Assembly: GCF_034259205.1 (NCBI RefSeq)
Contig: NZ_CP139487.1
Coordinates: 1,922,001-1,986,000 of the forward strand
Direction: 5' to 3'
Source of the DNA: Peredibacter starrii
GTDB lineage: Bacteria; Bdellovibrionota; Bacteriovoracia; Bacteriovoracales; Bacteriovoracaceae
Length of the DNA stretch: 64,000 bases
Positions 29,337 through 49,746 of the stretch are shown piece by piece. The translations under genes were made by a program, and so were the position numbers. The notes under the pieces were generated by a model. It saw nothing but the letters and a program-made list of their open reading frames with translations, had not been told where the DNA came from and searched no databases. Within the stretch, counting starts at the first letter, position 1. Every line of letters starts with the position of its first letter.

Positions 29337-29912
29337 ATGACTAAAATTGTTGCTTTTGGCCTACTTTTAACGATTGCTTCTTGTTCAAACTTACCGTTTG
29401 GTAAAAGACCGGCGCCGACCCAACCCAAAGTTGCGGTTACGCCGGTTGAACCTGCTCGAACAAAACCTGAAGTTAAAGGTCCAACCGCAGTCTGGTATCT
29501 CCACTCACACGATCGAGTGACTTTATATTTAAGAAATGTAGATGATACTTCATCCGCTTCTATGATTCTGGAAAAAGGGCTCAACCGATTCCCGATTCCA
29601 GAGGGCCATTGGGAGCTTACTGGCTTTGAAGAAGCAGATCGTTCGTTCACATCCATGAACACCTCTAAGAAATTTGTCTTCCGTGTGCGTCCTCGTTCTA
29701 CTACCTATGCAGGTTCTATCGTCATTGGTTGTCCAAAAGTCCAAAGTGACGATTTCAAATTTCTAAAGCCCATGAAGTTTTTCGACCGCTATCCATTCAG
29801 TTCGGAAGTCGGTTTATGTGAAATGATCGTAGGCAATGATTTTGCATCGGTCAAAACTGAGTTCAAAAAGGCCCACAAAACTAAGGGTTTAAATCTCACA
29901 ATCGGCTTTTAG
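29337..29912 (+). CDS. Lipoprotein, unknown function
   Basis: A 191-residue lipoprotein with lipobox TIASCS. A Pro/Lys-rich linker (residues 22-48) leads to a beta-rich domain that contains VWYLHSHDRVTLYLRNVDD and PIPEGHWELTGFEEADRS. Two cysteines (in IVIGCPKV and VGLCEMIV) could form a disulphide. I do not recognise the family. It is driven by its own leaderless promoter and is separate from the gliding-type operon that follows. Confidence 0.75.
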   Translation: MTKIVAFGLLLTIASCSNLPFGKRPAPTQPKVAVTPVEPARTKPEVKGPTAVWYLHSHDRVTLYLRNVDDTSSASMILEKGLNRFPIPEGHWELTGFEEADRSFTSMNTSKKFVFRVRPRSTTYAGSIVIGCPKVQSDDFKFLKPMKFFDRYPFSSEVGLCEMIVGNDFASVKTEFKKAHKTKGLNLTIGF

Positions 29913-30016
29913 CCAACAAATATCGCCACTCACTTAGGCGTGTACGCAAACTCTTGGCACCGCCTTTCTAAAGCTTCATAACACAAGCCCTTTTAACTTT
30001 TTTTAACTGGATCACG

Positions 30017-30044
30017 TTGAAAAAAAAATTCAGTAGCGTAGAAT
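30017..30044 (+). promoter_or_regulatory. Promoter A of the VWA/barrel operon
   Basis: TTGAAA (30017-30022), 16 bp, TAGAAT (30039-30044). The same architecture with near-identical boxes recurs at 34273-34300 ahead of the ExbB operon. The gap from 29913 to this point shows no gene. Confidence 0.6.
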
Positions 30045-30075
30045 CGGCCTTGTTAGTTACACATTCTTTTACTTT

Positions 30076-30131
30076 TTGATTTTGTAGTTGGACGTTAATT
30101 CAAGCTGCACGTATGTAGAGACCAAAATCAA
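30076..30131 (+). ncRNA. Structured 5' leader element, copy A
   Basis: Stem TTGATTTTG (30076-30084) with CAAAATCAA (30123-30131), perfect over nine pairs, closing a 38-base loop whose core is GTTGGACGTTA, two bases, TCAAG, one base, TGCACGT. Inside it ACGT (30092-30095) can pair with ACGT (30109-30112). GGCCTTG near the predicted start (30046-30052) is complementary to CAAGGCC (30141-30147), which would close an outer helix. Copy B at 34324-34380 keeps the core and changes the stem by compensatory substitutions. It could be a riboswitch-like sensor, a protein-binding leader or a stabiliser. No match to known motifs comes to mind. Confidence 0.6.
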
Positions 30132-30233
30132 GAAGAACCGCAAGGCCAAAGAGCTATTTTCAATTAACGCAATCTTGGTTTTTTGAGAGTAGAGAACACA
30201 TTTGTCGCCTTACGCTCCTTTAGGAGTCTAGTC

Positions 30234-31757
30234 ATGAAGACCAGAGTTACAAGCATCACAAATTTGATGTTCTCTTTAACGTTTTGTTTAGGACTTGCTT
30301 CCTGTAACAAAGACGAATTCTATCAAAAAGAATTCTTAGACAATCCTTATCAGCCCGATACCACAGGATCGGTGAACGGTGGAGGCCAGGGAGGCCTTGA
30401 TGCTGGTTCGGTTGGGGGCACTCAAGGTGGAGTGGATAATGGGGTAGATGGTGGTACATCTGGAAGTACCACCGGTTCCTCTACTGGTGGCGTTGATGGA
30501 TCTGCCACTACAGGTGGAACAGTTGGTGGTGTCGATGGATCGACAACCGGCGGATCAGTGGGTGGATCAGTTGTAGGTGGTGTTGACGGATCAGCAACCA
30601 CTGGTGGTGTTGATGGATCAACTACAGGTGGTTCAACAGGATCTACAACTGGTTCAACTGTTGGTGGAGTAGACGGATCTACAACATCAGGTTCTACAAC
30701 TGGTTCAACAACATCAGGTTCTACGACCGGTTCAACAACATCAGGTTCAACAACTGGATCAACAGTTGGTGGCGTTGATGGTTCAACAACTGGTGGTACA
30801 ACAGGTTCAACAACTGGTTCTTCAACTGGTGGTTATCTTGACTGTAACCAAGGTCACGGTAACGATGCAGATGGTGTTGATGAATCGAACCCAACTATTG
30901 GAACCGATCCAAGATGTAAAAAAGAAACTTTCCGTCAGGCAAATTCGCAAACTAAGAAACTGGATATCGTATGGATCATCGATAACTCTGGTTCTATGTC
31001 TGATGAGCAGGAAGCTCTTGGTGACAACTTCAGCGCTTTCATTGAAGACTTCATCACAAAAGATGTGGACTTCAAAATGGCCATTACGACTACTGATACT
31101 AGTTCTTCTTCTAAGAAAGGTCAGATGGTTTATGGTTCAGATACAAAATTGACTTCTGCTAAAGCAAAATTAAATGAAGCTCAGTTTATGAGAGATTTTA
31201 AATCGCTGGTAAGAGTAGGTACAAGTGGTTCTGGTTATGAAAAAGGTCTGGAAGCTTCAGAAGGTTTCATGCAGAAGTATGCTTCTTCATGGGTAAGACC
31301 GGATGCTTACCTGGCAGTAGTGGTTCTGTCGGATGAAGAAGATCAGTCTTCTAAATCTGTAAAGGCCTACACTGATTACCTTAAATCGTTCAAATCAGAG
31401 GCCGGTCTCGTAAAAATGTACTCGATCGTTGATGTTGGTATGTCGAATGTTGGATCAAATGGTGTGACTACTGGTTACCAAAGATATGCTGATGCTTCAA
31501 AAAACACTGCAGGTATTGTTGCAGACATCCGAGATGATTTTTACAAATCACTTGATGATATGGGTGAATCGATTATCAAACTTCTTGATTCTTTCGCCCT
31601 TGCTAATGAACCAGTACCAGGAACTCTAAAAGTGTATGTAAACGGTGTTGAGTCTTCTAACTATACTTACGATGCAGCTACACACTCGATCAAGTTCGAT
31701 CAAGGAAATCTGCCTCCAGTTGGTGCTGAGATTACAGTTACATATGTGAAACAGTAA
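30234..31757 (+). CDS. VWA-like lipoprotein with a long Gly/Ser/Thr repeat linker
   Basis: 507 residues from the ATG at 30234, which follows TTTAGGAG; an earlier in-frame TTG is rejected because it lies before that ribosome site. Lipobox GLASCN. Residues about 45-200 are low-complexity repeats of GGVDGSTTGG and GSTTGSTTS units. Then comes CNQGHGNDADGVDESNP and a VWA-like domain with MIDAS Asp250-x-Ser252-x-Ser254 in VWIIDNSGSMSDE, and a C-terminal beta module (VPGTLKVYVNGVESSNYTYD). Probably an outer-membrane-tethered adhesin or structural component. First gene of the gliding-type operon behind promoter/leader A. Confidence 0.82.
   Translation: MKTRVTSITNLMFSLTFCLGLASCNKDEFYQKEFLDNPYQPDTTGSVNGGGQGGLDAGSVGGTQGGVDNGVDGGTSGSTTGSSTGGVDGSATTGGTVGGVDGSTTGGSVGGSVVGGVDGSATTGGVDGSTTGGSTGSTTGSTVGGVDGSTTSGSTTGSTTSGSTTGSTTSGSTTGSTVGGVDGSTTGGTTGSTTGSSTGGYLDCNQGHGNDADGVDESNPTIGTDPRCKKETFRQANSQTKKLDIVWIIDNSGSMSDEQEALGDNFSAFIEDFITKDVDFKMAITTTDTSSSSKKGQMVYGSDTKLTSAKAKLNEAQFMRDFKSLVRVGTSGSGYEKGLEASEGFMQKYASSWVRPDAYLAVVVLSDEEDQSSKSVKAYTDYLKSFKSEAGLVKMYSIVDVGMSNVGSNGVTTGYQRYADASKNTAGIVADIRDDFYKSLDDMGESIIKLLDSFALANEPVPGTLKVYVNGVESSNYTYDAATHSIKFDQGNLPPVGAEITVTYVKQ
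30366..30833 (+). repeat. Degenerate tandem repeat coding for Gly/Ser/Thr units
   Basis: Imperfect copies of GGTTCAACAACTGGATCAA-like and GGTGGTGTTGATGGATCA-like units run through the linker part of the VWA lipoprotein gene. Unit length varies and the frame is kept throughout, which suits expansion and contraction by slippage without loss of reading frame. Confidence 0.75.
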
Positions 31758-31775
31758 GAGGATTAAGAGGGACGT

Positions 31776-32474
31776 ATGTTAAAACTTTCGATCATTGCTC
31801 TTGGACTTATGTTGATGCTCACAAAAAACACACACGCCGGAGAGAAGTCGTTATACGACTTCCTCTGGCTTGATCCAGACAAAAAAGTATACGTTCTTCA
31901 GAACAAGCTCTACAAGAAAGAGCATTCGTTTTACGCAGATGTGGGTTACCTTTCAAACTTCACATCTAAGTTCCAGGACACTCAAGGTATTGCCATCCGC
32001 GCTGGATACTACTTCCACGAAGAATGGGGATTGGAAGTTTTTTATAACCAGTATTCGAACTCTAACAACGATGATTTCAGAAACGTTCAATTTATTAACG
32101 AAGCTGAACCATTTGTAAGAAGACTTAATTCTACTTACGGTGCGATGCTGATCTGGTCACCATTCTACGGTAAGATCAATACCTTTAACCAGATCTACTA
32201 CTTTGACTGGTCATTTGGTGCAGGGGTATCGAAGATCAATGCTGAAAGTAACTTGAAAACGGTCACTCAAACGAACGTTCCAAATAATTACGCAAAAGAA
32301 AATTACACAGGTGCTGTTTTAAAAACTAAGGTCAAGTTCCACTTAACAGAGCATGTCCACTTGGGTCTGGAGTATATGAATACTTACTACAATGCCCCAG
32401 GACCAAAAAATCCTAAGTCGGACAAGCTTCGTACTAATACTGATGTTGTATTTAGCGTTGGATTTTCTTACTAA
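31776..32474 (+). CDS. Outer-membrane beta-barrel protein (TIGR04565-like)
   Basis: A 232-residue protein with signal peptide (LSIIALGLMLMLTKNTHAG). Alternating aromatic/polar strands follow, with motifs such as YADVGYLSNFTSK, IAIRAGYYFHEEWGLEVFYN and a terminal strand VVFSVGFSY ending in an aromatic residue. This is the layout of the outer-membrane barrel family found in myxobacteria and Bdellovibrionota near gliding genes. Probably the outer-membrane part of the machine. It starts 18 bp after the VWA gene with ribosome site AGAGG. Confidence 0.75.
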   Translation: MLKLSIIALGLMLMLTKNTHAGEKSLYDFLWLDPDKKVYVLQNKLYKKEHSFYADVGYLSNFTSKFQDTQGIAIRAGYYFHEEWGLEVFYNQYSNSNNDDFRNVQFINEAEPFVRRLNSTYGAMLIWSPFYGKINTFNQIYYFDWSFGAGVSKINAESNLKTVTQTNVPNNYAKENYTGAVLKTKVKFHLTEHVHLGLEYMNTYYNAPGPKNPKSDKLRTNTDVVFSVGFSY

Positions 32475-32485
32475 GAGGACGGACC

Positions 32486-33886
32486 ATGAAGTTTTCACTA
32501 ATTATCTTCACGTTACTGCTCGCGAAACCGGTCTTCGCAGAAGAGAAGAAGCCGGAGAAAACTTTGTCTCAGAAACTTGAAGACAAGAAATATTATTACT
32601 CGGCCCTGAACGAATTCTTCCGTGAGACTTATTCACGTGAAGTCATTAACGATGATCTAAAACGCCTGGAAGACCTTCTGTACTATACAGGGATTGAGCT
32701 TCTGGAAGACTATGATCCGTCGCTATTAAACCGTTATCCAACTTCTTCGACTAGATTCATCCTTGGTCGTCAAGCGATGCAGAAGAAGGACTATAAGCGT
32801 GCCTTGGATCTATTTGGGAAGATCCACCCTGATCACCGATATTTTCCAGAAGGGAAGCTATTAGAGGCCCAGGTTTATGATCAACAGAACATTCCAAAAA
32901 GTCGACTAACTGCTTATGAGGCCTGCCAGAACTCAGCGGAAAAGAACGAAGGCTCGGCCAAAACCGATAAGATTAAACGTTACTACCGAATGGTGTATGA
33001 GATCTGTCTAGTGAACAAGGCCCGTCACCATTTCAAAGTTGAGGAATACCAGGAATCATTGGATGCTTATAACAAGATTCCAAAACAATCTTATAAGTGG
33101 CCGTATCTTCTTCTAGAGAAAGCATGGGTGTACTACCAGATGGGTGATTACAACCGTGCCTTGGGACTTCTCACAACGTATAAGTCACCACTTCTTGATA
33201 CTTATTTCTTTCCGGAGGCCGAATATCTTGCGGCACTTTCATACTTCAGACTTTGCCTTTACGAAGATAGTTTAACGATCATTAACCAGTTTTATAAAGA
33301 GTATCGTCCTCGCTTCCAGGCACTGGATGCAGTGTTGAAGCAGAACCGTAACTCACAAAACTATTTTTATAACCTCATGTTTAAACCAGGTGAAGAACTT
33401 AAAAAACATGAAGAGTTCGTAAAGCACATCATTACTCGTATGAAGAAGCAGACTCGTTTCAGTCTGGACTTCAACGCCATCTTTAAGATCAATCAAGAGA
33501 TGAAGCGCATTGCTCATAACGAGAAGCCAGTGATTCAGGAACGTCTGAATGGTCACTTGGCGCAAGTGAAAGAGAACATGATTAACAAGATTAACTACAA
33601 CGCCAAGACCGATATCTTCCAGTTCCTGGAAGGTGTGCCTTTCCTGTCTTCGGAGTTGTTTAAGCTAAATCTAGAAATTATCTCTCGAAAGAAAGATTTG
33701 ATTTATGGAAACAAGAAACTTATTGCTGACCGTAGCCGCGGGGACTACTCCAACGTTAAGCGTTCACGCTTTGAGTACTTCTGGACTTTCCAAGGTGCTT
33801 TCTGGGCCGATGAATTAGGGGACTATTCATTGGGTCTAAAATCTAACTGTCAAACTGTTCGAAATCAAACCACGGAAGAGGAGTGA
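32486..33886 (+). CDS. Exported TPR protein of the gliding-type operon (AglT/GltE-like)
   Basis: A 466-residue periplasmic protein with signal peptide MKFSLIIFTLLLAKPVFAEE. Several tetratricopeptide-like helix pairs: LGRQAMQKKDYKRALDLFGK, ARHHFKVEEYQESLDAYNK, AWVYYQMGDYNRALGLL and LAALSYFRLCLYEDSLTII. Such TPR scaffolds occur in the periplasmic part of Glt/Agl motility complexes. It starts 11 bp after the barrel gene (ribosome site AGAGGAC). Assignment to AglT/GltE is by context and TPR content, not by close residue match. Confidence 0.75.
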   Translation: MKFSLIIFTLLLAKPVFAEEKKPEKTLSQKLEDKKYYYSALNEFFRETYSREVINDDLKRLEDLLYYTGIELLEDYDPSLLNRYPTSSTRFILGRQAMQKKDYKRALDLFGKIHPDHRYFPEGKLLEAQVYDQQNIPKSRLTAYEACQNSAEKNEGSAKTDKIKRYYRMVYEICLVNKARHHFKVEEYQESLDAYNKIPKQSYKWPYLLLEKAWVYYQMGDYNRALGLLTTYKSPLLDTYFFPEAEYLAALSYFRLCLYEDSLTIINQFYKEYRPRFQALDAVLKQNRNSQNYFYNLMFKPGEELKKHEEFVKHIITRMKKQTRFSLDFNAIFKINQEMKRIAHNEKPVIQERLNGHLAQVKENMINKINYNAKTDIFQFLEGVPFLSSELFKLNLEIISRKKDLIYGNKKLIADRSRGDYSNVKRSRFEYFWTFQGAFWADELGDYSLGLKSNCQTVRNQTTEEE

Positions 33887-33889
33887 TTT

Positions 33890-34138
33890 ATGAGAATTCT
33901 AGTTTATGTCCTTGGCCTTTACATGATGTCTGAGGCCTATGGTGAAGACCAGAAAGTCATTTATCAGTATAAGAAATACGAAAAGTTTGACTTAGGTAAT
34001 TTAGAAGTAAAAGGGCAGTTGATTGCCCCCGGGGACATCTCGGTTCGTGAACGTGAGAGAAAGCGCTTTGAGCTGGATCTTTATACACGAAAGGATTTCG
34101 ACGGCTTTATTAAGAAGGACATTGAGTCGCTAAGATAA
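33890..34138 (+). CDS. Small exported protein of the gliding-type operon
   Basis: An 82-residue protein with a short signal peptide (LVYVLGLYMMSEAYGE) and a mature part rich in charge: YQYKKYEKFDLGNLEVKGQ, IAPGDISVRERERKRFELDL. No known domain. It begins three bases after the TPR gene stop with GAGGAG upstream, so it belongs to the operon, and is its last gene. Likely a small partner of the TPR protein. Confidence 0.75.
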   Translation: MRILVYVLGLYMMSEAYGEDQKVIYQYKKYEKFDLGNLEVKGQLIAPGDISVRERERKRFELDLYTRKDFDGFIKKDIESLR

Positions 34139-34176
34139 TAAATCCAGCGACTTGTCCCTCCGATTATGCCTCGAAA

Positions 34177-34206
34177 AGTGGTCACCTTGAGAGGGTGACT
34201 ACCACT
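34177..34206 (+). terminator. Bulged hairpin after the first gliding-type operon
   Basis: AGTGG and TCACC pair with GGTGA and CCACT with a three-base bulge (CTA) on the right side and a seven-base loop. It is followed by ATTTAAGG, without a real T run, so termination strength is uncertain. Confidence 0.4.
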
Positions 34207-34272
34207 ATTTAAGGCACTCGGTTAATAACATTTTGAACTCTGGCGTTTTACCATTTTTTTAATAAATCTCGA

Positions 34273-34300
34273 TTGAGATAAATTTTGAGAAGAGTAGAAT
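34273..34300 (+). promoter_or_regulatory. Promoter B of the ExbB/ExbD operon
   Basis: TTGAGA (34273-34278), 16 bp, TAGAAT (34295-34300). It has the same spacing and the same -10 as promoter A, and is also followed by a TGTTAG stretch and the structured leader. Confidence 0.6.
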
Positions 34301-34323
34301 GCCGACTGTTAGAATATTTTTCT

Positions 34324-34380
34324 TCGATTCTTCTGTTGGACGTTATCTCAAGTTGCACGTTTGTTGATGTCTAGAATCGA
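34324..34380 (+). ncRNA. Structured 5' leader element, copy B
   Basis: Stem TCGATTCT (34324-34331) with AGAATCGA (34373-34380) around a 41-base loop. The core GTTGGACGTTA, TCAAG, TGCACGT, TGT, GA is identical to copy A at 28 of 32 positions. Two stem pairs differ from copy A as T-A to C-G exchanges on both strands at once, evidence for RNA pairing. Downstream in the leader are two more hairpins: GACTC/GAGTC (34391-34403) and TTTCGTTT/AAACGAAA (34468-34502), the latter 12 bases before the GGGGGAC ribosome site. No gene is seen in the 34139-34527 gap. Confidence 0.6.
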
Positions 34381-34527
34381 GAAAAAGAAAGACTCTACGA
34401 GTCTGTTCCGGATTTTAATGAATCATTCACACACAAAGAAACATTTCCTCAATGCAGGCATTGTATCTTTCGTTTTCATATCTACGAAAATCTCAAACGA
34501 AATTGAGTCACTTTAAGGGGGACGCTT

Positions 34528-35214
34528 ATGGAAGAAGTCGCTGCTAATCCAGTTGTGCAAGAAAACATCATTCAATGGGCCGCGCGCTTCATGAATGAAG
34601 GCGGGGTCTTTATGTGGATCATCGCCATTGTTTGGTGTATGGGAATCGCCATTGCAGTTGAACGTTTGAAGGCATACTTCAAGTTCGATGTGGATGGTGC
34701 AAGTATGATGGGTAACATCAAGAAGAATGTTATCGGTAATCAGGTGCAGGATGCTATTCAGTCATGTTCTGAGTCACCGGCCCTTCTATCATTTGTGATG
34801 AAGAACGGACTTAAGCGTGCCAATCAATCGAAAGAACAAATTCAGGACGCTCTTGAAGCAAGTATTCTTGAAGCGGTTCCTAAAATTGAAAAACGTCTTT
34901 CTTATCTTGCTCTAGCGGCCAACCTTTCAACGCTCCTAGGACTTCTCGGAACCATTCAGGGTCTGATCCAGTCATTCGCAGCGGTTGCCCAGGCCGAGGC
35001 CTCTCAAAAAGCCCAGCTACTAGCAGAAGGTATTGCGGTGGCGATGAATACGACGGCTTTAGGACTAGTATCTGCGATTTCTCTTATGGTTGTTCACTCA
35101 GTGCTCATGGCCCGTGGTGAAAAAATGATTCAAGAGATTGAAGAGAACTCTGTGAAGCTTTTGGACCTTCTTGCTACTAAGAAAGGTTCTTCATCAATGG
35201 ATAAAGCAGCTTAA
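34528..35214 (+). CDS. ExbB/TolQ/MotA-type proton channel subunit (AglR-like)
   Basis: A 228-residue inner-membrane protein with three hydrophobic helices: GGVFMWIIAIVWCMGIAIAV near the start, then LSYLALAANLSTLLGLLGTI and GIAVAMNTTALGLVSAISLM. The last two carry the conserved small and Thr residues of the ExbB pore. With two ExbD-like partners it should form a proton-driven motor. In Myxococcus, AglR-AglQ-AglS of this type power gliding; TolQR or ExbBD are the alternatives. First gene of the second operon, behind leader B. Confidence 0.88.
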   Translation: MEEVAANPVVQENIIQWAARFMNEGGVFMWIIAIVWCMGIAIAVERLKAYFKFDVDGASMMGNIKKNVIGNQVQDAIQSCSESPALLSFVMKNGLKRANQSKEQIQDALEASILEAVPKIEKRLSYLALAANLSTLLGLLGTIQGLIQSFAAVAQAEASQKAQLLAEGIAVAMNTTALGLVSAISLMVVHSVLMARGEKMIQEIEENSVKLLDLLATKKGSSSMDKAA

Positions 35215-35223
35215 GAGGTCGTT

Positions 35224-35685
35224 ATGAAAGTTGGACACAAAATCAAAAAGCCAGAAAAGTTGAACCTCGTTCCTATTTTGGACTCGGTGTTCATCTTCAT
35301 CTTCTTCCTTTTGATGTCTGCCCAGTTCGTAGATGTGTATGAAATCGGCTCTTCTGTACCAATGACTAAAGAGGCCAAGGACGAGAAGCAGGAGAAGGAC
35401 CCCCTGAATCTCACATTGGAAATCAGCAAGGAACAAATTGTCGTGAAAACCGGTCTAAGAAACCCACGCTCACGTACTTTTGCTTCCGAACAAAAAACAG
35501 AGATGAAGGACTATCTCGCGGAACTTAAACGTCAGAACCCTAAAGAAAACACGATGATTCTTAAGACTGACCCTAAAGTTCCGTTCCAGACTCTGATTAC
35601 TGTTATCGACAGCACAAAAGAAAACAAAGAAGCGAAGGACATGCTTTTTCCACAGATTGTGTTTGATAACAATGGAGTGAAGTAA
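35224..35685 (+). CDS. ExbD/TolR-type stator subunit 1
   Basis: A 153-residue protein with one N-terminal transmembrane helix: LNLVPILDSVFIFIFFLLMS, with the proton-accepting Asp at its start. A periplasmic ExbD-like domain follows (LILKTDPKVPFQTLITVIDS-like block). It starts nine bases after the ExbB gene. It pairs with the second ExbD, as AglQ and AglS do in myxobacteria. Confidence 0.85.
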   Translation: MKVGHKIKKPEKLNLVPILDSVFIFIFFLLMSAQFVDVYEIGSSVPMTKEAKDEKQEKDPLNLTLEISKEQIVVKTGLRNPRSRTFASEQKTEMKDYLAELKRQNPKENTMILKTDPKVPFQTLITVIDSTKENKEAKDMLFPQIVFDNNGVK

Positions 35686-36162
35686 ATGAAAAAGAAATTC
35701 ACAAGACACAAGGAAAGAGAAGCAGTGGACGTGGATATCACTTCATTACTGGATATCTTAACGATCCTACTGGTGTTCTTGCTTAAAAGTTATAACGCCT
35801 CGGACTTAAAACTCGACCTTCAAAAGGGACTTGAGATGGCCGATTCCGATGCGAGAACAATGACTCGTTATGCTCCGGTAGTTCAGGTCAACAAGGAAGA
35901 AAAAGTTTTCCTGAACAATAAAGAAATCGGTCGTATGCCAGCATCAGGAGAGATGCCGGTTCTGACTGAAGCTCTTAAAAAGGCCAAGGCAGGCATTGAA
36001 GCTGATAATGCTAAGAAAGCAAAAAATCAGCAAACCAATACCGAACTTGTAAACCTGGTGTTTGATAAAGACATGGACTATGCCGTCGTTCAAAGAGTTA
36101 TGCATGACTCTGCACTTGCCGGGTATTCACAATTTAAGTTCATTGTGAAAGGGAATTACTAG
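35686..36162 (+). CDS. ExbD/TolR-type stator subunit 2
   Basis: A 158-residue protein starting directly at the stop of subunit 1. Transmembrane helix VDITSLLDILTILLVFLLKS contains the essential Asp. The periplasmic part has FDKDMDYAVVQRVMHDSALA, the usual ExbD C-terminal fold element. Two different ExbD proteins with one ExbB is the arrangement of the Agl motor rather than of simple TolQR. Confidence 0.87.
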   Translation: MKKKFTRHKEREAVDVDITSLLDILTILLVFLLKSYNASDLKLDLQKGLEMADSDARTMTRYAPVVQVNKEEKVFLNNKEIGRMPASGEMPVLTEALKKAKAGIEADNAKKAKNQQTNTELVNLVFDKDMDYAVVQRVMHDSALAGYSQFKFIVKGNY

Positions 36163-36163
36163 G

Positions 36164-39040
36164 ATGAAATTTCTACTCTTTGCTCTACTTTATTCATCTG
36201 TAACCATCGCCGCGGAGACTAAAGCTCCTAAGAACGAGCGTTGGAACAAACTCATGACTCTAGTGGGTCAAGAGATGAAGATCCTGGAAAATGCCAAACG
36301 TAAAGGTGTTGAGATCAAGTATCGCATGCTCGAACTTCATTCAGAGAAGGTCAAACTTATTCACGAGAAGAATAACCGTGAGTTCATGGAGAAATCAAAA
36401 GCGAATCCAGCGCTTGCCAGAAACAAGGAAGGTTTCTTTGCTGAGACTCGTGCTTACTATCAAGTGACCAAGGATTTTGGTCTAAAAATCTTGAAAGAAA
36501 ACCCGGTGAACCATCGAAAAGCGGAGGTCATGTACGCCATGGCCCTGAACTCCCGCGATTACGGCCGGGACAACATTACTGAGCAATATCTATTGCAGGC
36601 GATTGCCCTTGTGAAGGACCACAAGAACTCAATCCGTCACCATGCTGAAACTGCATTGGCCGACTTTTATTACAACGAAAAACGTTTTCCTGAGGCCATC
36701 ACTTATTATCAACGAGTAATTAAGAACACTGAAGACGACTGGATGACAAAACACTTGTTCAACTTGTCGTGGTGTTACCTTAAAAACCGTGAGTTCGATA
36801 AGGCAATTGATACTATTAAAAAGTCTTATTTTGAGTCGAAGAACCCACTTTATGTGAACATCAAAGATCAGGTATTGGATAATATCGGTTCTTTCTATGT
36901 GTATGCCGGCCGTCCACTGGATGGTCTCGAGTTCTATCTTGATAACGAGAAGGACCCTGTTCCTTATCTTATTCCGATGGCGCTAAAAACTTCTGACAAA
37001 GGTCACGAAAAAGAAACAAAGGAAATTCTGGATGCTGCTCAGAAGGTAGTTGATAAAAACGAATTCTACCAACACCAGGAAGAACTTCTTCATACTTATT
37101 TAGATTATTACCGTCACTACAACAGATTTGCAGATCATGAAAAAATGTCTCGCAATCTTGTAGCATACTATAAAAAAGCACACCAGGAACTGGCCGACGA
37201 TAAGAAATCGAAGTTCCAGATCGCCCTGAAAGACGACGCCATCGAAAAGATGCGTTCGGTTGCAGGTTTTTTACAGGTGAAGCTCGCAAAAGATGTTAAA
37301 AAAGATGAAAGTAACTATAATGAAGATGAACTTGAAATCGTTTTAAACTATTTCTCGCATCTGATTACCTTAGATCCAAATCGTAAGGTTGAATATTTCT
37401 ATTTCCGGGCCGAAACTTATTACTCAGTACTTCAGTATAAGAGCGCGGCCCCTTGTTACGTGGAGGCCGTCAATGAAGCAAAAAGAGTTAAGCATGATGA
37501 ACTTGCTCGTAAATCTCTCAATTCTCTTCTTGCTCTTACCGGGCAAGAAGTCCTTGATAAAGATGAAAACAAAAAGTACCTGATCTTCGCCTATTCTAAT
37601 CACGTAGAGCTTTGGCCTCGTGACGAGAAGAGTGAACAGATCTATCCAAAGCTTTTCGAGATCTATCGTGAAGCTCAAGACGACAAAAAATCAACCGCAG
37701 TTATTCGTTCTTATAACAAAGCTTACCCAGAGCACCTGAAAGAACAGCAGACCTTCATGACGAAGATTCTGGATCAGTTCATTGATAAAAAGAACACTGA
37801 ACGCCTGACTTATTGGGTGGGTGAGTTTAAAACCGGCTTCCTTTCATTCTCAAAAGATGTGATCGAGAAGACAGAAATCACTCTTGGTAACATCCTGTTC
37901 ATTCAGTATCAAGAACTTGCTAAGAAGGGTGAACGTGTTGCTGCGATTAAAGGTTTCGAGAGCCTTTATGTGCACAAACTTTATCCTGATAAGGTGAAAT
38001 ACCAAGCTGCTTTCTTCGCTTCAATGCTTAACCTGGAACTTGGTGAGACTGTGAAGTCTTATCACTGGCAGGCCCTTGCCTACGCTCGTATGACTGAAGA
38101 AGAAAAGTTAGAGCGTCGTGAAGAGCAGATGAAGATGGCAGAACGTACTTACCGTCTTCAGGATTTTAATACTTCATATAAGATCGCTGATTTCCTTTTA
38201 AAGAAATTCTGTTCTTTGAAAGATGATACTCAGACTCGTCTCTACGAGATCGGCGTGATGACAGCTCTTGTGGAAGAGAAAGCGGCCGATGCGGAAAGAA
38301 TCGTTTCAGAGTATTCAAAATGTCTTAAGAAGCCTGAAGTAAGAGACTCGGCCCTGGCCCAGATCTACTCCCTTCATGAGAAGAAAGGGGACTTTTTTGG
38401 ACTTCGTTTATTTGTAAAACGTCACCATGTAGAGCCTTATATTACTCAGTACCGTTTTTCGCTTCAGAAGTGGTTTTGGGAGAAAACAGACGTGAACCTT
38501 AAGGCCCATATTCAGGCCGAATTTAAGGAACTTAAGCACCCGGAAACCCTTGCTTGGCTTCAGGAGATCAACCTCCACAAAGAGGCCGAAAAAGACATGC
38601 AAGAAATTCGTGCCACTGTGGTTTGGAACAAGCCTCAATTTGATGGCGAGGCCTTCAATAAGTCTCTGGAAAGCTATCTTTTGAAGCTTAAAAACTTCAA
38701 AGACCGTTACCAACCACTGACTCAGTCGACGCAAGTTGATCTTGCAATTCTTACCACTCGACTTTTTTCTGAGGTATACTCTCACATCGGTCAAACCATT
38801 CAGGGGCTTCGTCCAGCTGGAATGGATGCTCAGACTATGAACGATTTTGGGAATGCAATGAAACAACTTTCACAACAGTTCCTGGTAGCGGCCCGTCAGT
38901 ATGATAAGAATCTAGAGAAGGCCCTTAAAGAGAAAGAAACTCTTGCCTGGGGCTCTCGTTCAATTGCTTCAGTAGAGAAAGTAGAAAACCCAGTGTTCTC
39001 ATTTTTCACTGGTCTTACCATGGATAAGAGTAAGGAGTAG
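36164..39040 (+). CDS. Large exported TPR-repeat protein
   Basis: A 958-residue periplasmic protein with signal peptide (KFLLFALLYSSVTIAAE) and many tetratricopeptide-like repeats across nearly its whole length: ALADFYYNEKRFPEAITYYQ, LSWCYLKNREFDKAIDTIKK, FRAETYYSVLQYKSAAPCYV. The C-terminal 150 residues are helical with no further assignment. Such large TPR proteins form the periplasmic spine in Glt-type machines. It starts one base after ExbD 2, so stoichiometric expression with the motor is likely. Confidence 0.82.
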   Translation: MKFLLFALLYSSVTIAAETKAPKNERWNKLMTLVGQEMKILENAKRKGVEIKYRMLELHSEKVKLIHEKNNREFMEKSKANPALARNKEGFFAETRAYYQVTKDFGLKILKENPVNHRKAEVMYAMALNSRDYGRDNITEQYLLQAIALVKDHKNSIRHHAETALADFYYNEKRFPEAITYYQRVIKNTEDDWMTKHLFNLSWCYLKNREFDKAIDTIKKSYFESKNPLYVNIKDQVLDNIGSFYVYAGRPLDGLEFYLDNEKDPVPYLIPMALKTSDKGHEKETKEILDAAQKVVDKNEFYQHQEELLHTYLDYYRHYNRFADHEKMSRNLVAYYKKAHQELADDKKSKFQIALKDDAIEKMRSVAGFLQVKLAKDVKKDESNYNEDELEIVLNYFSHLITLDPNRKVEYFYFRAETYYSVLQYKSAAPCYVEAVNEAKRVKHDELARKSLNSLLALTGQEVLDKDENKKYLIFAYSNHVELWPRDEKSEQIYPKLFEIYREAQDDKKSTAVIRSYNKAYPEHLKEQQTFMTKILDQFIDKKNTERLTYWVGEFKTGFLSFSKDVIEKTEITLGNILFIQYQELAKKGERVAAIKGFESLYVHKLYPDKVKYQAAFFASMLNLELGETVKSYHWQALAYARMTEEEKLERREEQMKMAERTYRLQDFNTSYKIADFLLKKFCSLKDDTQTRLYEIGVMTALVEEKAADAERIVSEYSKCLKKPEVRDSALAQIYSLHEKKGDFFGLRLFVKRHHVEPYITQYRFSLQKWFWEKTDVNLKAHIQAEFKELKHPETLAWLQEINLHKEAEKDMQEIRATVVWNKPQFDGEAFNKSLESYLLKLKNFKDRYQPLTQSTQVDLAILTTRLFSEVYSHIGQTIQGLRPAGMDAQTMNDFGNAMKQLSQQFLVAARQYDKNLEKALKEKETLAWGSRSIASVEKVENPVFSFFTGLTMDKSKE

Positions 39041-39043
39041 ATC

Positions 39044-39862
39044 ATGAAGACGATTAGTTTTATCTTTGCCCTTATGTTCTTCGCTTCATGTTCGACGTCT
39101 CGTATCGATCGTAAGATTGAAGATGTGACTTGGGACTCTCTTGCGGACGAATCATATCTTCGTTGGGGGGAGACACGTTTAACTAAGGCCAATCCTGAAC
39201 ATACAGTTGTGAACTGTTATAAAGGTGAAGCGCAAGAGACTCTTGATAAGTATAAAAGAGACTACATCACAAAGGGCCAGACTCCATACTACTGGCTCCA
39301 TATTGGTAACTGTTATTTCGTTCAAGATCAGTGGTCAAAGGCCGAGTTCTTTTACCGCATGACTCTTGATGAAACAAAGGTTCCAACGATTAAGTCAATT
39401 GCTCTTAATAACCTTGGTTTGATTTCTTTCAAGTATGAGCAATGGGAAAAAGGGAAGGAATATCTTCGTCAGTCGATGGCCCTTGCTCCTAAGTTCAAGG
39501 TTCCACGTTACAACATGTCTCAACTTTATCTTCAGTTCGGTCTGTATGACAAAGCAATTGATGTGTTAAGTGAGAGTGCTTTCCGTGGTCACAAAGATAT
39601 CGATGTTTATTTCTCATTGGCGAATGCTTATTTGTATAAGGGTGACCTTAAAACCGCATCTCGCTATTTTAATATGATTCCTCCTGAGCATTTTCGCCGC
39701 GAGGACATTGCCGCAACTTATGCTCTTTACCTTATCCGTCAGGGTGATGTGAAAGGAGCTAAGGAAATCATGAATGCCAGAGACCGCTCTGATGTTCCTG
39801 AACTAACGGCCATCTCACAAAAGATTGAAAAGATTCTCTCTCAAAGAATGAAAGAGGAATAG
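39044..39862 (+). CDS. TPR lipoprotein of the motor operon
   Basis: A 272-residue lipoprotein: lipobox FFASCS (MKTISFIFALMFFASCSTS). TPR repeats at LHIGNCYFVQDQWSKAEFFY, LNNLGLISFKYEQWEKGKEY and VYFSLANAYLYKGDLKTASR. Probably anchored in the outer membrane as a docking scaffold. It begins three bases after the large TPR gene with AAGGAG as ribosome site. Confidence 0.83.
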   Translation: MKTISFIFALMFFASCSTSRIDRKIEDVTWDSLADESYLRWGETRLTKANPEHTVVNCYKGEAQETLDKYKRDYITKGQTPYYWLHIGNCYFVQDQWSKAEFFYRMTLDETKVPTIKSIALNNLGLISFKYEQWEKGKEYLRQSMALAPKFKVPRYNMSQLYLQFGLYDKAIDVLSESAFRGHKDIDVYFSLANAYLYKGDLKTASRYFNMIPPEHFRREDIAATYALYLIRQGDVKGAKEIMNARDRSDVPELTAISQKIEKILSQRMKEE

Positions 39863-39865
39863 AGT

Positions 39866-41668
39866 ATGAAGACCGCGACTTTACAAGGACAGTTTAGTTT
39901 AAAATGTCTTGATCCAAGGATCGAAGATGCCTTGATCATCGACAAGAAGAAGATCCTTATCGGTTCATCTGATAAATGTGATTTTAAACTGAACGACAAA
40001 TCTGTTTCCTCTATGCATGCTTTTCTTTGCCTTAAAGGTGAAGGCTTCATGGTGAAAGACCTGTACTCTGAAGGTGGAGTATTTGTTAACGGCCGCCGTG
40101 TTGACGAGGCCAGCGTTTATCCAGGTGACACTCTAACAATTGGTACTTTGAGTTTTGCCATCGAAGGTCTGGAAGAAAACGTTCCAGTATTTAACCCTGA
40201 TGAGGCGATTGTTTCAGTTGAAACTCCGGTTTCAGTTGAGCTTCCTCCACGTCCAGGTCTGATCTTCATCGATGGTGAGTACTGTGATATTGAATTCGAT
40301 GATTCGAACTTCAAACCATTGACTGAGATCCCTAAAATCTCTATTAACGGCGAGTTCATTGATCTAGAACAGACTGAAGAAGTTCTGGATATTGGTTACT
40401 CGGTTAAAGACAAGCGTCTTGAGATCATTTCTTATGTAAATGGTCTTATGATGGATGTGTCTTATCTATCTCTAAAAAATGGTGACTACAGCTTCAATTC
40501 TCAGAAGAAGAAAAAGACCGATATCCTTTTCCATACTCTGAGCAATACAAAGATCTTCTCGATTCAGAATGGCGAGCTTAAGTTCTACGCTTCTGAAGCG
40601 GTGACTCCATCAACTGATTGGGACAAGATCAATCTTAATGACACTGTTTTCTTTAGCCATGGCACTGAGCAAGTGTCTTTCCGCCTAGTTGATCATACGA
40701 CTGGTTGGAGAGGTATCCCAGCTTTCTATCGTGACCGTGAGTTCTTTAAACAAGGTGGTAAGGTTTTCGCTTCGGTGTTCTTGCCATTATTGATTCTTCT
40801 CTTCATCACTATTCCTAAACAAGATGAGTTCAAAGAAGAGATCGCAGTTGTATACAAACTTCCTGAAAAAGTGGTTAAGCCTCAAGAGTCTCAGGAGAAG
40901 TCTGAGCTTTCAGCTGAACAGTTAACTTCTAAAACTGAGAACACGGGCCACAAGGAAACTGAACAACCGAACCAAAAGGTTGAGTTCGCTGCCGCTTCTC
41001 AAAATAAGAAAGTACAGGCCAAGGCCGCTGCTCCAACTCCGGCCGCAGCTCAGCCTGTTGCTACTCAGCCAGTTAAGGCCTACGAATTTAAGTCTTCTGT
41101 GGCGTTTAACTCTCTTGTAGGGGACGCTCCAAAGATCAATACTAATGGCTCAACTGCTAAAGGTGCTGTTAAAGACACAAGCTTTAACTCTGGTACATCC
41201 GATAACGGCCAGCTAGTTGCTGGGGCCGATATCGGTGTTTCTAAGTTCAACGGTTCAGATAAGAGCGGTTCTGGTTCTGGTTCATATGGTTCAAGAGGTC
41301 TGGCCTCTAAATCGGGCTTTGATTCTTCTTACCTAGAACCAAAAACAGTGGTGCTTGGTTCAATGGACCCAGAATTACTTCGTAAGATTCTAAGAGAGTA
41401 TATTCCTCAGTTCCGCCACTGTTACCAACAGGAACTTATCGCTAACTCTGATAAGATTAAAGGTGTAATCGACCTTAACTTTACAATCAGCGCTGGTGGT
41501 AAAGTTTCTAAATACGCCATCAAGGTGAAGGACGCTCAGTTCTCGGCCAAAGGTGTAGGTTGTATGGGTCAGGTGCTTAGCTTGATCGAGTTCCCAAAAC
41601 CAAAAGGTGGCGGGGTAGTGGACGTAAGACAGCCGCTTAACTTCTTCTCAGAAACAGAAAAAATCTAA
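39866..41668 (+). CDS. FHA-domain transmembrane protein with AgmX/PglI (TonB-like) tail, GltG/GltJ-like
   Basis: A 600-residue bitopic protein. An N-terminal cytoplasmic FHA domain (residues 25-95: LIGSSDKCDFKLNDKSVSSM, DLYSEGGVFVNGRRVD) binds phosphothreonine. A single membrane helix FASVFLPLLILLFITIP lies near residue 300. A Pro/Ala/Gln- and Gly/Ser-rich periplasmic linker follows, then an AgmX/PglI C-terminal domain (LREYIPQFRHCYQQEL, SAKGVGCMGQVLSLIEFPKP) with two cysteines. This is the expected link between motor and envelope, as GltG/GltJ in Myxococcus. Last gene of the operon, followed by a strong terminator. Confidence 0.88.
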   Translation: MKTATLQGQFSLKCLDPRIEDALIIDKKKILIGSSDKCDFKLNDKSVSSMHAFLCLKGEGFMVKDLYSEGGVFVNGRRVDEASVYPGDTLTIGTLSFAIEGLEENVPVFNPDEAIVSVETPVSVELPPRPGLIFIDGEYCDIEFDDSNFKPLTEIPKISINGEFIDLEQTEEVLDIGYSVKDKRLEIISYVNGLMMDVSYLSLKNGDYSFNSQKKKKTDILFHTLSNTKIFSIQNGELKFYASEAVTPSTDWDKINLNDTVFFSHGTEQVSFRLVDHTTGWRGIPAFYRDREFFKQGGKVFASVFLPLLILLFITIPKQDEFKEEIAVVYKLPEKVVKPQESQEKSELSAEQLTSKTENTGHKETEQPNQKVEFAAASQNKKVQAKAAAPTPAAAQPVATQPVKAYEFKSSVAFNSLVGDAPKINTNGSTAKGAVKDTSFNSGTSDNGQLVAGADIGVSKFNGSDKSGSGSGSYGSRGLASKSGFDSSYLEPKTVVLGSMDPELLRKILREYIPQFRHCYQQELIANSDKIKGVIDLNFTISAGGKVSKYAIKVKDAQFSAKGVGCMGQVLSLIEFPKPKGGGVVDVRQPLNFFSETEKI

Positions 41669-42698: not shown

Positions 42699-42762
42699 GT
42701 GCTCCCTTGGCAAAGGGGAACCATCCTTTCAACCGAAACGGCTCCATCGCAGAAAAAAGGAG
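42699..42762 (+). promoter_or_regulatory. Folded 5' leader of the PL6 lyase gene
   Basis: Hairpin CCCTT-GGCA-AAGGG (42704-42717), a small CCG-AAA-CGG hairpin (42733-42741), and two segments able to pair with the ribosome site: CTCC (42742-42745) with GGAG (42759-42762), and GTGCTCC (42699-42705) with GGAGTAC. The alternatives are mutually exclusive, which resembles a translational switch. No known riboswitch consensus was matched. Confidence 0.35.
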
Positions 42763-42767
42763 TACGT

Positions 42768-45266
42768 ATGAAGCTTCTGCTCAAATTGGGCCTGGCCGCC
42801 CTCTTATTGCCTATTGGTCCAGCTCTCGCTGAGGTTCTTTATAAAGAGGCTTCACAGCACTCTGGTCTAGTGCCATCTATGGTCATTCAAACGGCCTCAA
42901 ATTCTCCGACTGGTCATCGCGTTCACACCACTCTTGCAAACACTGGTGAAGCTCTTTTTGAATTCGAGCTTGATGAACCTGGGAAATTTGAGGTCGAGGC
43001 ATTGCTTTATGCCGATGCTATTTACCGAAATTCAATGGCCGTATCAGTAAATGGAGGTGCGGTTGGTGAATGGGAATTGGACATAGATAATACTGCTTAT
43101 CAATGGAGGAAATTTCCCCAAGAGTTTCAAGGGCAGGCCGGTATTCAACAGGTTCGTCTCCTCGGAAGAGAGACCTATGTTCGAATTGCGGCAGTCAGAA
43201 TCAATAAAATCATTGAGGTCCCAGTTGAAAAACTGGAAGTTCATGCTTCAGAGGCCGTGCTTACACCTCCGATGAATTTGACAGCAGATTCTACTGGTGA
43301 CTATCTTTCGTCTACGACCAATCATCAAGGGCAAGCGGACTTTACGTTCCTTCTCCTTGAAGATTCTCAGGTGCGCCTTGATCTTCTGGCGCAAGGATTA
43401 ACCTCTGCAAGTGATTCATTCTGGTTAAAGCATGCGGATGGAACACAAGAGGCCATCCACCTGGGAGCATCGGCCGATTTTAAATGGAAACTTGGACCGA
43501 CTCTGAATTTACTTGCTGGTTCTCATACCATTAGTATTGTTGGTCGCGAGGCCCTGGCCCGACTACGAACACTTAAGTTAACGAAGCTAGGGGCGATTCC
43601 AGATCCTGAACCACAACCAGATCCCATTATTCCCGCGGCACCGGCCCCGAGTCGCTTTGAGAGCGCTACTAACCTAACTGAAATTAACGCTCTAAGTTTC
43701 TCAGATGCGGCCACTAAGGCCTTGGCAGCTGCTCCCAATTCAAAAATCATTTTACCTTCTGGAACATTCTCGAATGTGAATGTGACATTAAGAGGTGAGG
43801 GAATTCAAAATGCTCCTATCATCATTGAAGGTCAACCTGACGGCTCTACGATCTTGACTGGTAAGATTCTTCTGACAGTCAAAGGTAGTTATGTTTTGGT
43901 CAAAAATCTTAACGTGCAAAACTATGACTCTTTTTCATACGGTAGCTACGGCATAGTCGTTTTTGATGATTGTGCTTATTGTGGTCTTCAAAACAGCCGC
44001 TTTGATACCAGTGTGGCCGCAGTGATGGATCTTGAGTATAAAAATGATGCAAAACATTTTAAAACCATCCGGATCAAGCCTAATTCTCAAAACGTCGAGA
44101 TCTCAAATAATACATTCAAGAACAAGCAAAATGCTGGCTCCTCGGTTCTTGTGGATCGGGAACTCAACCGAGCAAACCTGCATGAAGGACATCGCATTTT
44201 CCGAAATCTCTTCTTAGATCGGAAGTTGGAAAAAAATGATGCCAATGATTTTGATTCGATTCGTATTGGCGATAGTGATCGTTCACATTCACCCTCGCAG
44301 GAAGACGCTGAAGCTCTGATGACTGGAGAAAATGCGACCCTGGTCGGAACTACAGTCGAGTTCAATGTGTTTGAAGGAACAAGACTGACGGATTCAGCTT
44401 ATAATTCTTGTGTCAGTGCCGGGAATTGGAGTGCCAAAGTCTGTAAAGGTGAACCTGAAATCATCTCTATCAAGGCCCCTCAAACCATTGTTCGCTTTAA
44501 CACTTTCAGAAATAACAGTGGTGGTTTGACCATTCGTCATGGTTACATGAGCATTGTAGAAGGAAACTACTTCTCGGGTGTCAATCTCCCACAGGGAATT
44601 TCTACCATCATGCCAAACTCCTACGGAATTCGAATTATTCATCAAAATCATCTAGTTTTAAATAACCACATCGAAGAATTGATAACAACTTCCAAACTCC
44701 ACGGCGGTATTTCGATACTTCCGGGTAATACAACAACCGTAAAAAAAGAGTATTGGAAGGTGATTGATACGATTGTCTCGGGAAATTTCATCCGCAACGT
44801 ATCCCCGCGCCCCATTTCTCTTGCCTCAGACTATGGAGGAGATGGTAAAACTTTGTTACCAGAAGGTATTGTGCTTACTCACAACGTAGTGTCTCTATGT
44901 TCTGTGGCGGTGGTTAATCAGGCCCCGGATGAAGCATATCTCGCTACTTTCAGTTCTTACGAAAACTATTTTGATTGCCTAAGTTGGGGAGTGGGTCTTG
45001 TGGGTTCTGTCCAGATTCCACTTGCACCAACGATCCTGAACAATGGTTTTAATCTGCCAAACGATCCTGGCATTATCGGGGCCACTGGAGTGTTGTATAA
45101 TTCTGCCTCCAAGCATGCTGGCCGTCTGAGTGCACTTTCGACTCTTTCAGGAATTCAAGCGGCCTCTAGAATGGAGAAGCTGTCCCAATTTTTGATGATT
45201 AAGAAAGGATCATTGTACGATAATTATCTCCCTCAGAATCGTAATGAAGTAGGCTCAAGTTTTTAG
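42768..45266 (+). CDS. Secreted PL6-family polysaccharide lyase (alginate/chondroitin lyase-like)
   Basis: An 832-residue secreted protein; the ATG at 42768 follows AAAAAAGGAG and starts signal peptide KLLLKLGLAALLLPIGPALA. Residues 25-300 hold two similar beta-sandwich modules, each ending in a GRE-x5-8-RxxxL/I-x-K strand, probably carbohydrate-binding and internally duplicated. From about 325 a right-handed beta helix follows with the PL6 hallmarks: EIISIKAPQTIVRFNTF with Lys569, then GGLTIRHGYMSIVEGNYFSG with Arg590. The Lys-Arg spacing of 21 equals that of chondroitinase B (Lys250/Arg271). It cleaves uronate-containing polysaccharide by beta-elimination. Own terminator. Confidence 0.85.
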   Translation: MKLLLKLGLAALLLPIGPALAEVLYKEASQHSGLVPSMVIQTASNSPTGHRVHTTLANTGEALFEFELDEPGKFEVEALLYADAIYRNSMAVSVNGGAVGEWELDIDNTAYQWRKFPQEFQGQAGIQQVRLLGRETYVRIAAVRINKIIEVPVEKLEVHASEAVLTPPMNLTADSTGDYLSSTTNHQGQADFTFLLLEDSQVRLDLLAQGLTSASDSFWLKHADGTQEAIHLGASADFKWKLGPTLNLLAGSHTISIVGREALARLRTLKLTKLGAIPDPEPQPDPIIPAAPAPSRFESATNLTEINALSFSDAATKALAAAPNSKIILPSGTFSNVNVTLRGEGIQNAPIIIEGQPDGSTILTGKILLTVKGSYVLVKNLNVQNYDSFSYGSYGIVVFDDCAYCGLQNSRFDTSVAAVMDLEYKNDAKHFKTIRIKPNSQNVEISNNTFKNKQNAGSSVLVDRELNRANLHEGHRIFRNLFLDRKLEKNDANDFDSIRIGDSDRSHSPSQEDAEALMTGENATLVGTTVEFNVFEGTRLTDSAYNSCVSAGNWSAKVCKGEPEIISIKAPQTIVRFNTFRNNSGGLTIRHGYMSIVEGNYFSGVNLPQGISTIMPNSYGIRIIHQNHLVLNNHIEELITTSKLHGGISILPGNTTTVKKEYWKVIDTIVSGNFIRNVSPRPISLASDYGGDGKTLLPEGIVLTHNVVSLCSVAVVNQAPDEAYLATFSSYENYFDCLSWGVGLVGSVQIPLAPTILNNGFNLPNDPGIIGATGVLYNSASKHAGRLSALSTLSGIQAASRMEKLSQFLMIKKGSLYDNYLPQNRNEVGSSF

Positions 45267-48902: not shown

Positions 48903-49639
48903 ACTTCTGAACCTTTAGTGAGAGGGAAGAAAGAAACTGTCAGTTGATAAACTTCATTCAGAGAGCTCTTTTTCTGAATGTATTGCCCAAGCTCGGCCTG
49001 GAAGGCCATGATCTTGTCTTTAATTTCCGGCAGACGGTTTTTGTCTACGGCAACAGTCAATGAACCGTGGTAACGGGATTCGATTCCCACTTTATCAATA
49101 GCATCATAGCTTAGTTGCGAGAGTCGCTTCTGAAGCATTTTACGGGCCTCGGAAGTTTTGCTTCCATCCACCCACGAATTGTTCGGCTTCAGAAGTTTAT
49201 AAACGTTCTGGTCCTGGCTGATAAAACCCAGCTTTAAAAGCTGTTCCAGGATTCCCTGCATGTCTTCCACTGGAATATGAAAACGATTGGCCAGAAACTC
49301 AACCGAGCACTTATTGTCGATCTTTAAATATTCAAGAACACCCCAGAATCTCCAGTCGCCGATGACCGTCATTAAAGATTCTTCCAGTTCGGTGTATTCG
49401 CTCAGGAGAGTTCGTCTTTCCTCTTCAAACTGGGCAATGACCGTTTCGCTGGCGCCAAGTCTCTCTAAACATTGAGTTCTGATGGTCCAAGACAGGTCTC
49501 GCGCCCCATTGAAAAACTTTGAAAGGGTAGATTGGTCCACGCCCAGAAGTTTTGCGAAGGCCCGAAGTGAATAAGATGGATTACGATTTCTTCTCTCGAG
49601 AAATTCTTTTTCCAGGTATGCAGCGAAGTTCTTTTGCAT
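48899..49639 (-). CDS. TIGR02147-family regulator (DUF4423)
   Basis: A 246-residue protein. The N-terminal helix-turn-helix SLRAFAKLLGVDQSTLSKFF is followed by a winged helix and a DUF4423 domain (MTVIGDWRFWGVLEYLKIDN, then FHIPVEDMQGILEQLLKLGF), and a C-terminal part (SRYHGSLTVAVDKNRLPEIK). This family is strongly enriched in Bdellovibrionota and Fibrobacter. It probably controls its own operon with the exported protein it overlaps. Confidence 0.85.
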   Translation of the reverse strand: MQKNFAAYLEKEFLERRNRNPSYSLRAFAKLLGVDQSTLSKFFNGARDLSWTIRTQCLERLGASETVIAQFEEERRTLLSEYTELEESLMTVIGDWRFWGVLEYLKIDNKCSVEFLANRFHIPVEDMQGILEQLLKLGFISQDQNVYKLLKPNNSWVDGSKTSEARKMLQKRLSQLSYDAIDKVGIESRYHGSLTVAVDKNRLPEIKDKIMAFQAELGQYIQKKSSLNEVYQLTVSFFPLTKGSEV

Positions 49640-49746
49640 ATAAATCCATAGGTAAATAAAGGTTTACAAATTTTCTTAACGAAGAATGTTTTCTTTGAAT
49701 AGTCTGTAAAAAACAGCACTTTGGTTAGGGATTATGAGAGTGCGAA

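Follow-up and report, generated by a model that had tools for sequence, protein, structure and literature searches.

A structured RNA element upstream of envelope motor and lipoprotein genes of Bacteriovoracaceae, a candidate operator of translation

The loops of the guanidine-II riboswitch (mini-ykkC, RF01068) are ACGR on two separate hairpins. Within the phylum Bdellovibrionota, the predatory Bdellovibrio has a structured RNA, the merRNA (PMC3627812), which we consider together with the GEMM riboswitches for cyclic dinucleotides; the merRNA is free-standing and reported only in the Bdellovibrio lineage. The element described here is found in two leaders of the window, by which we mean the whole 64,000-nucleotide stretch of Peredibacter starrii DNA that was analysed. 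Like guanidine-II, it has two similar short units in a 5′ leader, each built around ACG, but its ACGU-type units are located inside one outer stem, without closing stems of their own. Guanidine-II was rejected because in both units the base after ACG is U, no closing stems covary, and there is no Rfam match. The element also differs from GEMM in having no Rfam match at the gathering or the relaxed threshold. In Rfam 15, no family was matched in the window at the gathering threshold, and the relaxed threshold gave only chance-level matches at ten other loci. Furthermore, a search of the literature on structured RNAs of Bacteriovoracaceae and Bdellovibrio found no description of the element. The original prediction, made from the sequence alone, knew of no RNA family with such a core, and this held, as there is no Rfam 15 match. 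We are probably dealing with an undescribed RNA family, one with strong covariation support.

Both window leaders have a promoter-like site with the common consensus TTGARA-N16-TAGAAT, and a hairpin follows it. The coordinates of the features are given in Table 1. The cores of copies 1 and 2 are identical at 28/33 positions; the next-best match to the core anywhere in the window is 19/33. The original prediction had described a twin promoter and hairpin in both leaders, and enclosing stems that pair in both copies, and these claims held, positions included. Its core identity of 28 of 32 also held, with the length corrected to 33. It had further described a TGTTAG stretch, which is present in both window copies and is not conserved in relatives. 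There are 3 promoter-like sites in total within 29900-34560, two being those of the leaders. Shuffles average 8.5, more than the real sequence, so the count alone proves nothing. The single-copy folding energy of either hairpin is no better than that of shuffles (z = -0.6 to -1.1). Since single-sequence folding is unremarkable, the case for structure rests on comparative evidence.

Table 1. Features of the two leaders and operons, in window positions, and of the core-bearing RNAs outside the family, in positions of the named locus.
Feature	Position	Strand	Support
Promoter-like site, copy 1: TTGAAA-N16-TAGAAT	30017..30044	+	sequence
RNA element P1, copy 1 (stem and conserved core)	30067..30138	+	92.8 bits, model R1
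Stem, copy 1: TTGATTTTG/CAAAATCAA	30076-30084 with 30123-30131	+	
Conserved core, copy 1: GTTGGACGT and CTGCACGT, imperfect tandem repeat	30087..30119	+	
Ribosome-binding-site hairpin, copy 1: GCTCC-TTTA-GGAGT, Shine-Dalgarno-like GGAG in 3′ arm	30214..30227	+	sequence
VWA/MIDAS-like lipoprotein gene (adhesin/CglD-like), first after copy 1	30234..31757	+	MIDASAdhsBdello 1.6e-19, CglD 1.5e-10, both below naming cut-offs
Outer-membrane beta-barrel protein gene, operon 1	31776..32474	+	TIGR04565, over cut-off
GltC-like TPR protein gene, operon 1	32486..33886	+	NF033756, 3.5e-35, below naming cut-off
Promoter-like site, copy 2: TTGAGA-N16-TAGAAT	34273..34300	+	sequence
RNA element P1, copy 2	34315..34387	+	72.9 bits, model R1
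Stem, copy 2: TCGATTCT/AGAATCGA	34324-34331 with 34373-34380	+	
Conserved core, copy 2	34335..34367	+	
P2 hairpin, copy 2: AGACTC-TAC-GAGTCT, trinucleotide loop	34390..34404	+	
Leader ORF MNHSHTKKHFLNAGIVSFVFISTKISNEIESL, stops 11 nt 5′ of tolQ-like start	34418..34516	+	
TolQ/ExbB-like motor gene, first long gene after copy 2	34528..35214	+	MotA_ExbB, 7e-27
Rest of operon 2: two ExbD/TolR-like, two TPR and one FHA/GltG-like protein	35224..41668	+	
Core-bearing RNA outside the family	L174:2616-2764		
Core-bearing RNA outside the family	L215:1491-1652		
Core-bearing RNA outside the family	L239:1476-1646		

The comparative evidence shows that the structured RNA family is real and that its fold is kept by compensatory change. 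In an alignment of 82 sequences, 13/13 stem pairs have changed on both sides, and 89.6% of the cells pair. The compensated cells number 212, compared with 50 in shuffled and 32-69 in slid controls. This alignment was fitted to the structure. An ungapped MAFFT alignment, A3, built without the structure, agrees with it, giving 12 compensated cells against 2.8. Furthermore, the 12 strongest pairs by mutual information are all stem pairs. The original prediction had taken compensatory change between the two stems as the mark of a functional RNA, and this held, as the stems of relatives pair through compensatory changes.

The core is an imperfect tandem repeat of GUUGNNCGU, with the units about 17 nt apart. 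Within the units, G8 and T9 are invariant in both and C7 nearly so, and positions 5 and 6 are variable. Mutual-information and pairing analysis of the alignment found no second helix inside the core. A hairpin inside each core half was considered and rejected, as many copies break, without compensation, the TTG/CAA pairing of unit 1 and that around ACGU in unit 2. For ACGU-ACGU pairing between the units, both are almost invariant, hence there is no covariation signal either way. With so little variation in the core, its internal pairing is unresolved.

The element is a widespread RNA of Bacteriovoracaceae rather than a two-copy curiosity. A blastn search with copy 2 gave matches in 26/26 genomes of the genus, many of them at chance level only, and revealed extra copies beyond the pair. 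The core pattern has 53 matches across the 26 genus genomes, and the reversed control has 0. A covariance model built from 14 copies (R1) matched 23/26 genus genomes and 47/129 family genomes, and a second one built from 82 copies (R2) matched 86/129 Bacteriovoracaceae genomes, in 28/48 genera. Elsewhere in the phylum, model R2 matched only 2 of 240 genomes. When named genomes were scanned with a pattern, the records returned were almost only those of Bacteriovoracaceae, Bacteriovorax and Halobacteriovorax. Antisense model matches, which originate from the near-palindromic core, were left out.

The P. starrii genome itself has exactly 3 matches to the core pattern. The third copy of the element (G000:C1:2969834-2969907, minus strand) is upstream of an unrelated lipoprotein gene. 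At this locus (L033, G000:C1:2967000-2971500), the lipoprotein has 259 aa and no Pfam or NCBIfam match, and the GCACGT and GGACGT units of the element are in swapped order.

Which genes follow the element? Of the 125 distinct family copies, 120 sit upstream of one of six gene families, on the same strand. The VWA/MIDAS lipoprotein genes are downstream of 59 of the 125 copies, and a TolQ-like gene is downstream of 20. Three further lipoprotein families, which we mark 'GVKVET', 'IPGV' and 'FFPTEE', follow 26, 8 and 6 copies, respectively, and none of them has a Pfam or NCBIfam match. The outer-membrane protein gene of the cluster follows 1 copy. The other 5 copies precede none of the six families, two of them being at contig ends. 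In the window, GltC-, GltG-, CglD/MIDAS- and TolQR-like genes occur across the two operons. These names are all below the NCBIfam naming cut-offs, and thus they denote kinship, not identity.

The original prediction had spoken of two gliding-type operons that share a leader and are under joint control. The gliding-type description fits the genes found, and the set of genes is wider than these two operons. The covariance-model search proposed as a check found further copies in 25/26 genus genomes, besides the family genomes counted above. The regulon is strongly supported by the 120 copies; control itself, its sign and its trigger are inferred only.

Some further features of these loci may be noted. 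The TPR protein of operon 2 is matched in nearly all family genomes, usually twice, which likely reflects two paralogous clusters. The second match in the P. starrii genome (G000:C1:635929-638073) is probably such a paralogous cluster, and it is without the element. A weak copy of the element (L206:3092-3161, E 0.23) is directly 5′ of a relative of the operon 1 outer-membrane protein gene, which is there apart from the VWA gene. Just 3′ of operon 2, positions 42699-45266 encode a large, probably secreted protein of 855 aa.

A TAGWAT box is found 5′ of the element in 38/55 genus copies, compared with 10% in shuffles, and it is mostly 10-22 nt upstream. The signal is weaker in other genera. Given this box, transcription should start just before the hairpin, and the element would then be transcribed as part of the mRNA; this start is inferred from sequence alone, with no transcript data. 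The distance from the end of the element to the start codon has a median of 41 nt. The presence of a second hairpin is shown by a count of P2-type hairpins (loop of 3, at least 5 Watson-Crick pairs, no more than 32 nt 3′ of P1), which occur in 40/122 copies, with 3.1 expected, and all four Watson-Crick pair types occur at the inner positions. By this strict test, P2 is detected in just a third of the copies. Before the VWA genes of relatives, a Shine-Dalgarno-like sequence is often within a small hairpin similar to that of copy 1, as read by eye and without a chance comparison.

In the TolQ copies, an ATG stands where the start codon is normally found and begins a leader ORF of 25-41 codons, which usually ends just before tolQ. 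This frame runs on without a stop to 20 nt or less from tolQ in 16/17 loci, and the other informative frame does so in 4/17. The leader peptides are only about 15% identical (median), showing that the frame is kept open without conservation of sequence. In one genome (G012), the leader ORF is fused in frame to tolQ.

We suggest, as the reading that these data favour by a modest margin, that the element is a 5′-terminal cis-regulatory RNA operator that controls translation initiation, probably through a protein bound to it. An RNA near the 5′ end, beside start codons and on a closed set of genes, makes control of translation initiation the simplest mechanism. The action on translation, the binding protein and the sign of control are inferences, made without transcript, binding or expression data. 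Judged by the promoter position, transcription would begin a few nucleotides 5′ of the hairpin. The variable stem, of about 13 pairs, would display the nearly invariant loop with its two repeat units to a trans-acting factor. This factor is most likely an RNA-binding protein specific to the lineage, for which the repeat would be a double site. Two things make a protein the more likely partner: the element is restricted to a single family and a single machine, and its core is a double site. No candidate binding protein has been identified. The bound factor would set translation initiation at the start codon downstream, which in many copies is preceded by the second small hairpin. For the lipoprotein targets, the controlled start codon would be that of the gene itself. 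For the motor operon, it would be that of the short leader ORF, the stop of which adjoins the tolQ start, and the effect would be relayed by translational coupling. In this way, the cell would co-ordinate its supply of one envelope machine with that of the machine's surface lipoproteins. Overall, the structured RNA family is real and its regulon is tight; the translational mechanism is plausible, the control itself being inferred.

Several other explanations can be considered. The one that survives best, though we regard it as unlikely, is a 5′ stabiliser or localisation signal, in which the hairpin protects the mRNA from decay or guides the messages of envelope proteins without any switch. 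In its favour, the hairpin is close to the inferred 5′ end, and the targets are nearly all envelope or lipoprotein genes. However, a mere stabiliser has no need of a nearly invariant 33-nt core, and the second paralogous motor cluster of the P. starrii genome lacks the element. A riboswitch, in which the two similar halves of the loop bind a small molecule, such as a symmetric second messenger, and switch access to the ribosome-binding site, is slightly less probable still. It is supported by the large invariant loop in a covarying stem next to ribosome-binding sites, by the two-fold repeat, by the presence on several genes in one genome, and by the control of gliding by cyclic dinucleotides in the related Bdellovibrio (PMC9140294). 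However, the element is found in essentially one bacterial family and on one machine, no pairing was found that would join core and ribosome-binding site, and there is no match to an Rfam riboswitch. Known riboswitches are usually more widespread and associated with metabolic genes.

A DNA operator, with a transcription factor on the direct repeat GTTGNNCGT just 3′ of the promoter and the inverted repeat only incidental, is very unlikely. In its favour are the direct repeat of about 17 nt close to the promoter and the palindromic ACGT, but the arms change at every position and stay complementary over 28 genera, which a DNA site does not need, and the association of the element with the start codon, the P2 hairpin and the leader ORF also speaks against it. 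Control of elongation, by attenuation or processive antitermination, instead of translation is likewise very unlikely: one target is a long operon and the element is near the promoter, but many of the targets are lone short genes 30 nt 3′ of the element, and no terminator-like hairpin is present on the coding strand of either window leader, the G+C-rich hairpin and U run of an intrinsic attenuator being absent.

Outside the family, two model matches and one further pattern match combine a sequence resembling the core with a long hairpin 3′ of it, the loop of which is C-rich (CUCCCCCCC). Two of these three RNAs, each convergent with a TIGR02147 gene, have no same-strand gene after them and look free-standing. 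The third is possibly the leader of an ABC transporter gene. The L174 RNA ends in a T run. These sequences show that action in cis is not obligatory for the core, and they suggest its recognition in trans. Three sequences are too few for a covariance model. The TIGR02147/DUF4423 genes were considered as a lead and set aside, since they are beside 2/3 of the outside copies but number about 15 in the P. starrii genome and so are non-specific. This is an expanded family with an HTH-like part, and one member is in the window near 48914-49642. A literature search on TIGR02147 gave nothing relevant. A further pattern match with 3 mismatches, L213, has neither the core nor the hairpin and was dropped. 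A bolder reading, which we consider unlikely as a whole, is that the tandem core is the site of an unknown Bdellovibrionota RNA-binding regulator. In Bacteriovoracaceae, it would serve in mRNAs as the operator of a single envelope machine, used for predation or gliding, and the leader ORF would pass the control on to the motor operon. In other families, it would be on a separate small RNA with the C-rich loop, acting as a decoy or partner.

To return to the operator that we favour, the element is kept by evolution in dozens of species, and it may well set how much of the surface machine is translated, although this is inferred. It provides a sequence handle on how relatives of Bdellovibrio co-ordinate the TolQ/Glt motor with its surface lipoproteins. 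The three unmatched lipoprotein families are likely partners of the TolQ/Glt machine, and the element hints at a new RNA-binding regulator to be sought.

Among systems bound by proteins, the CsrA/RsmA leader sites and the CsrB-type RNAs also have a repeated short motif near ribosome-binding sites, and, as with CsrB-type RNAs, the core of the element occurs in apparently free-standing RNAs. However, a CsrA site was rejected, as the GGA that it needs is missing in many copies (GCA, CCC, TTC), the second unit being mostly GCA and the first variable. In contrast to the leader operators of ribosomal proteins, the targets here are envelope motor genes and the binding protein is unidentified. Nevertheless, the element has in common with those operators a conserved loop in a variable stem, near the ribosome-binding site, on several transcripts of one machine.
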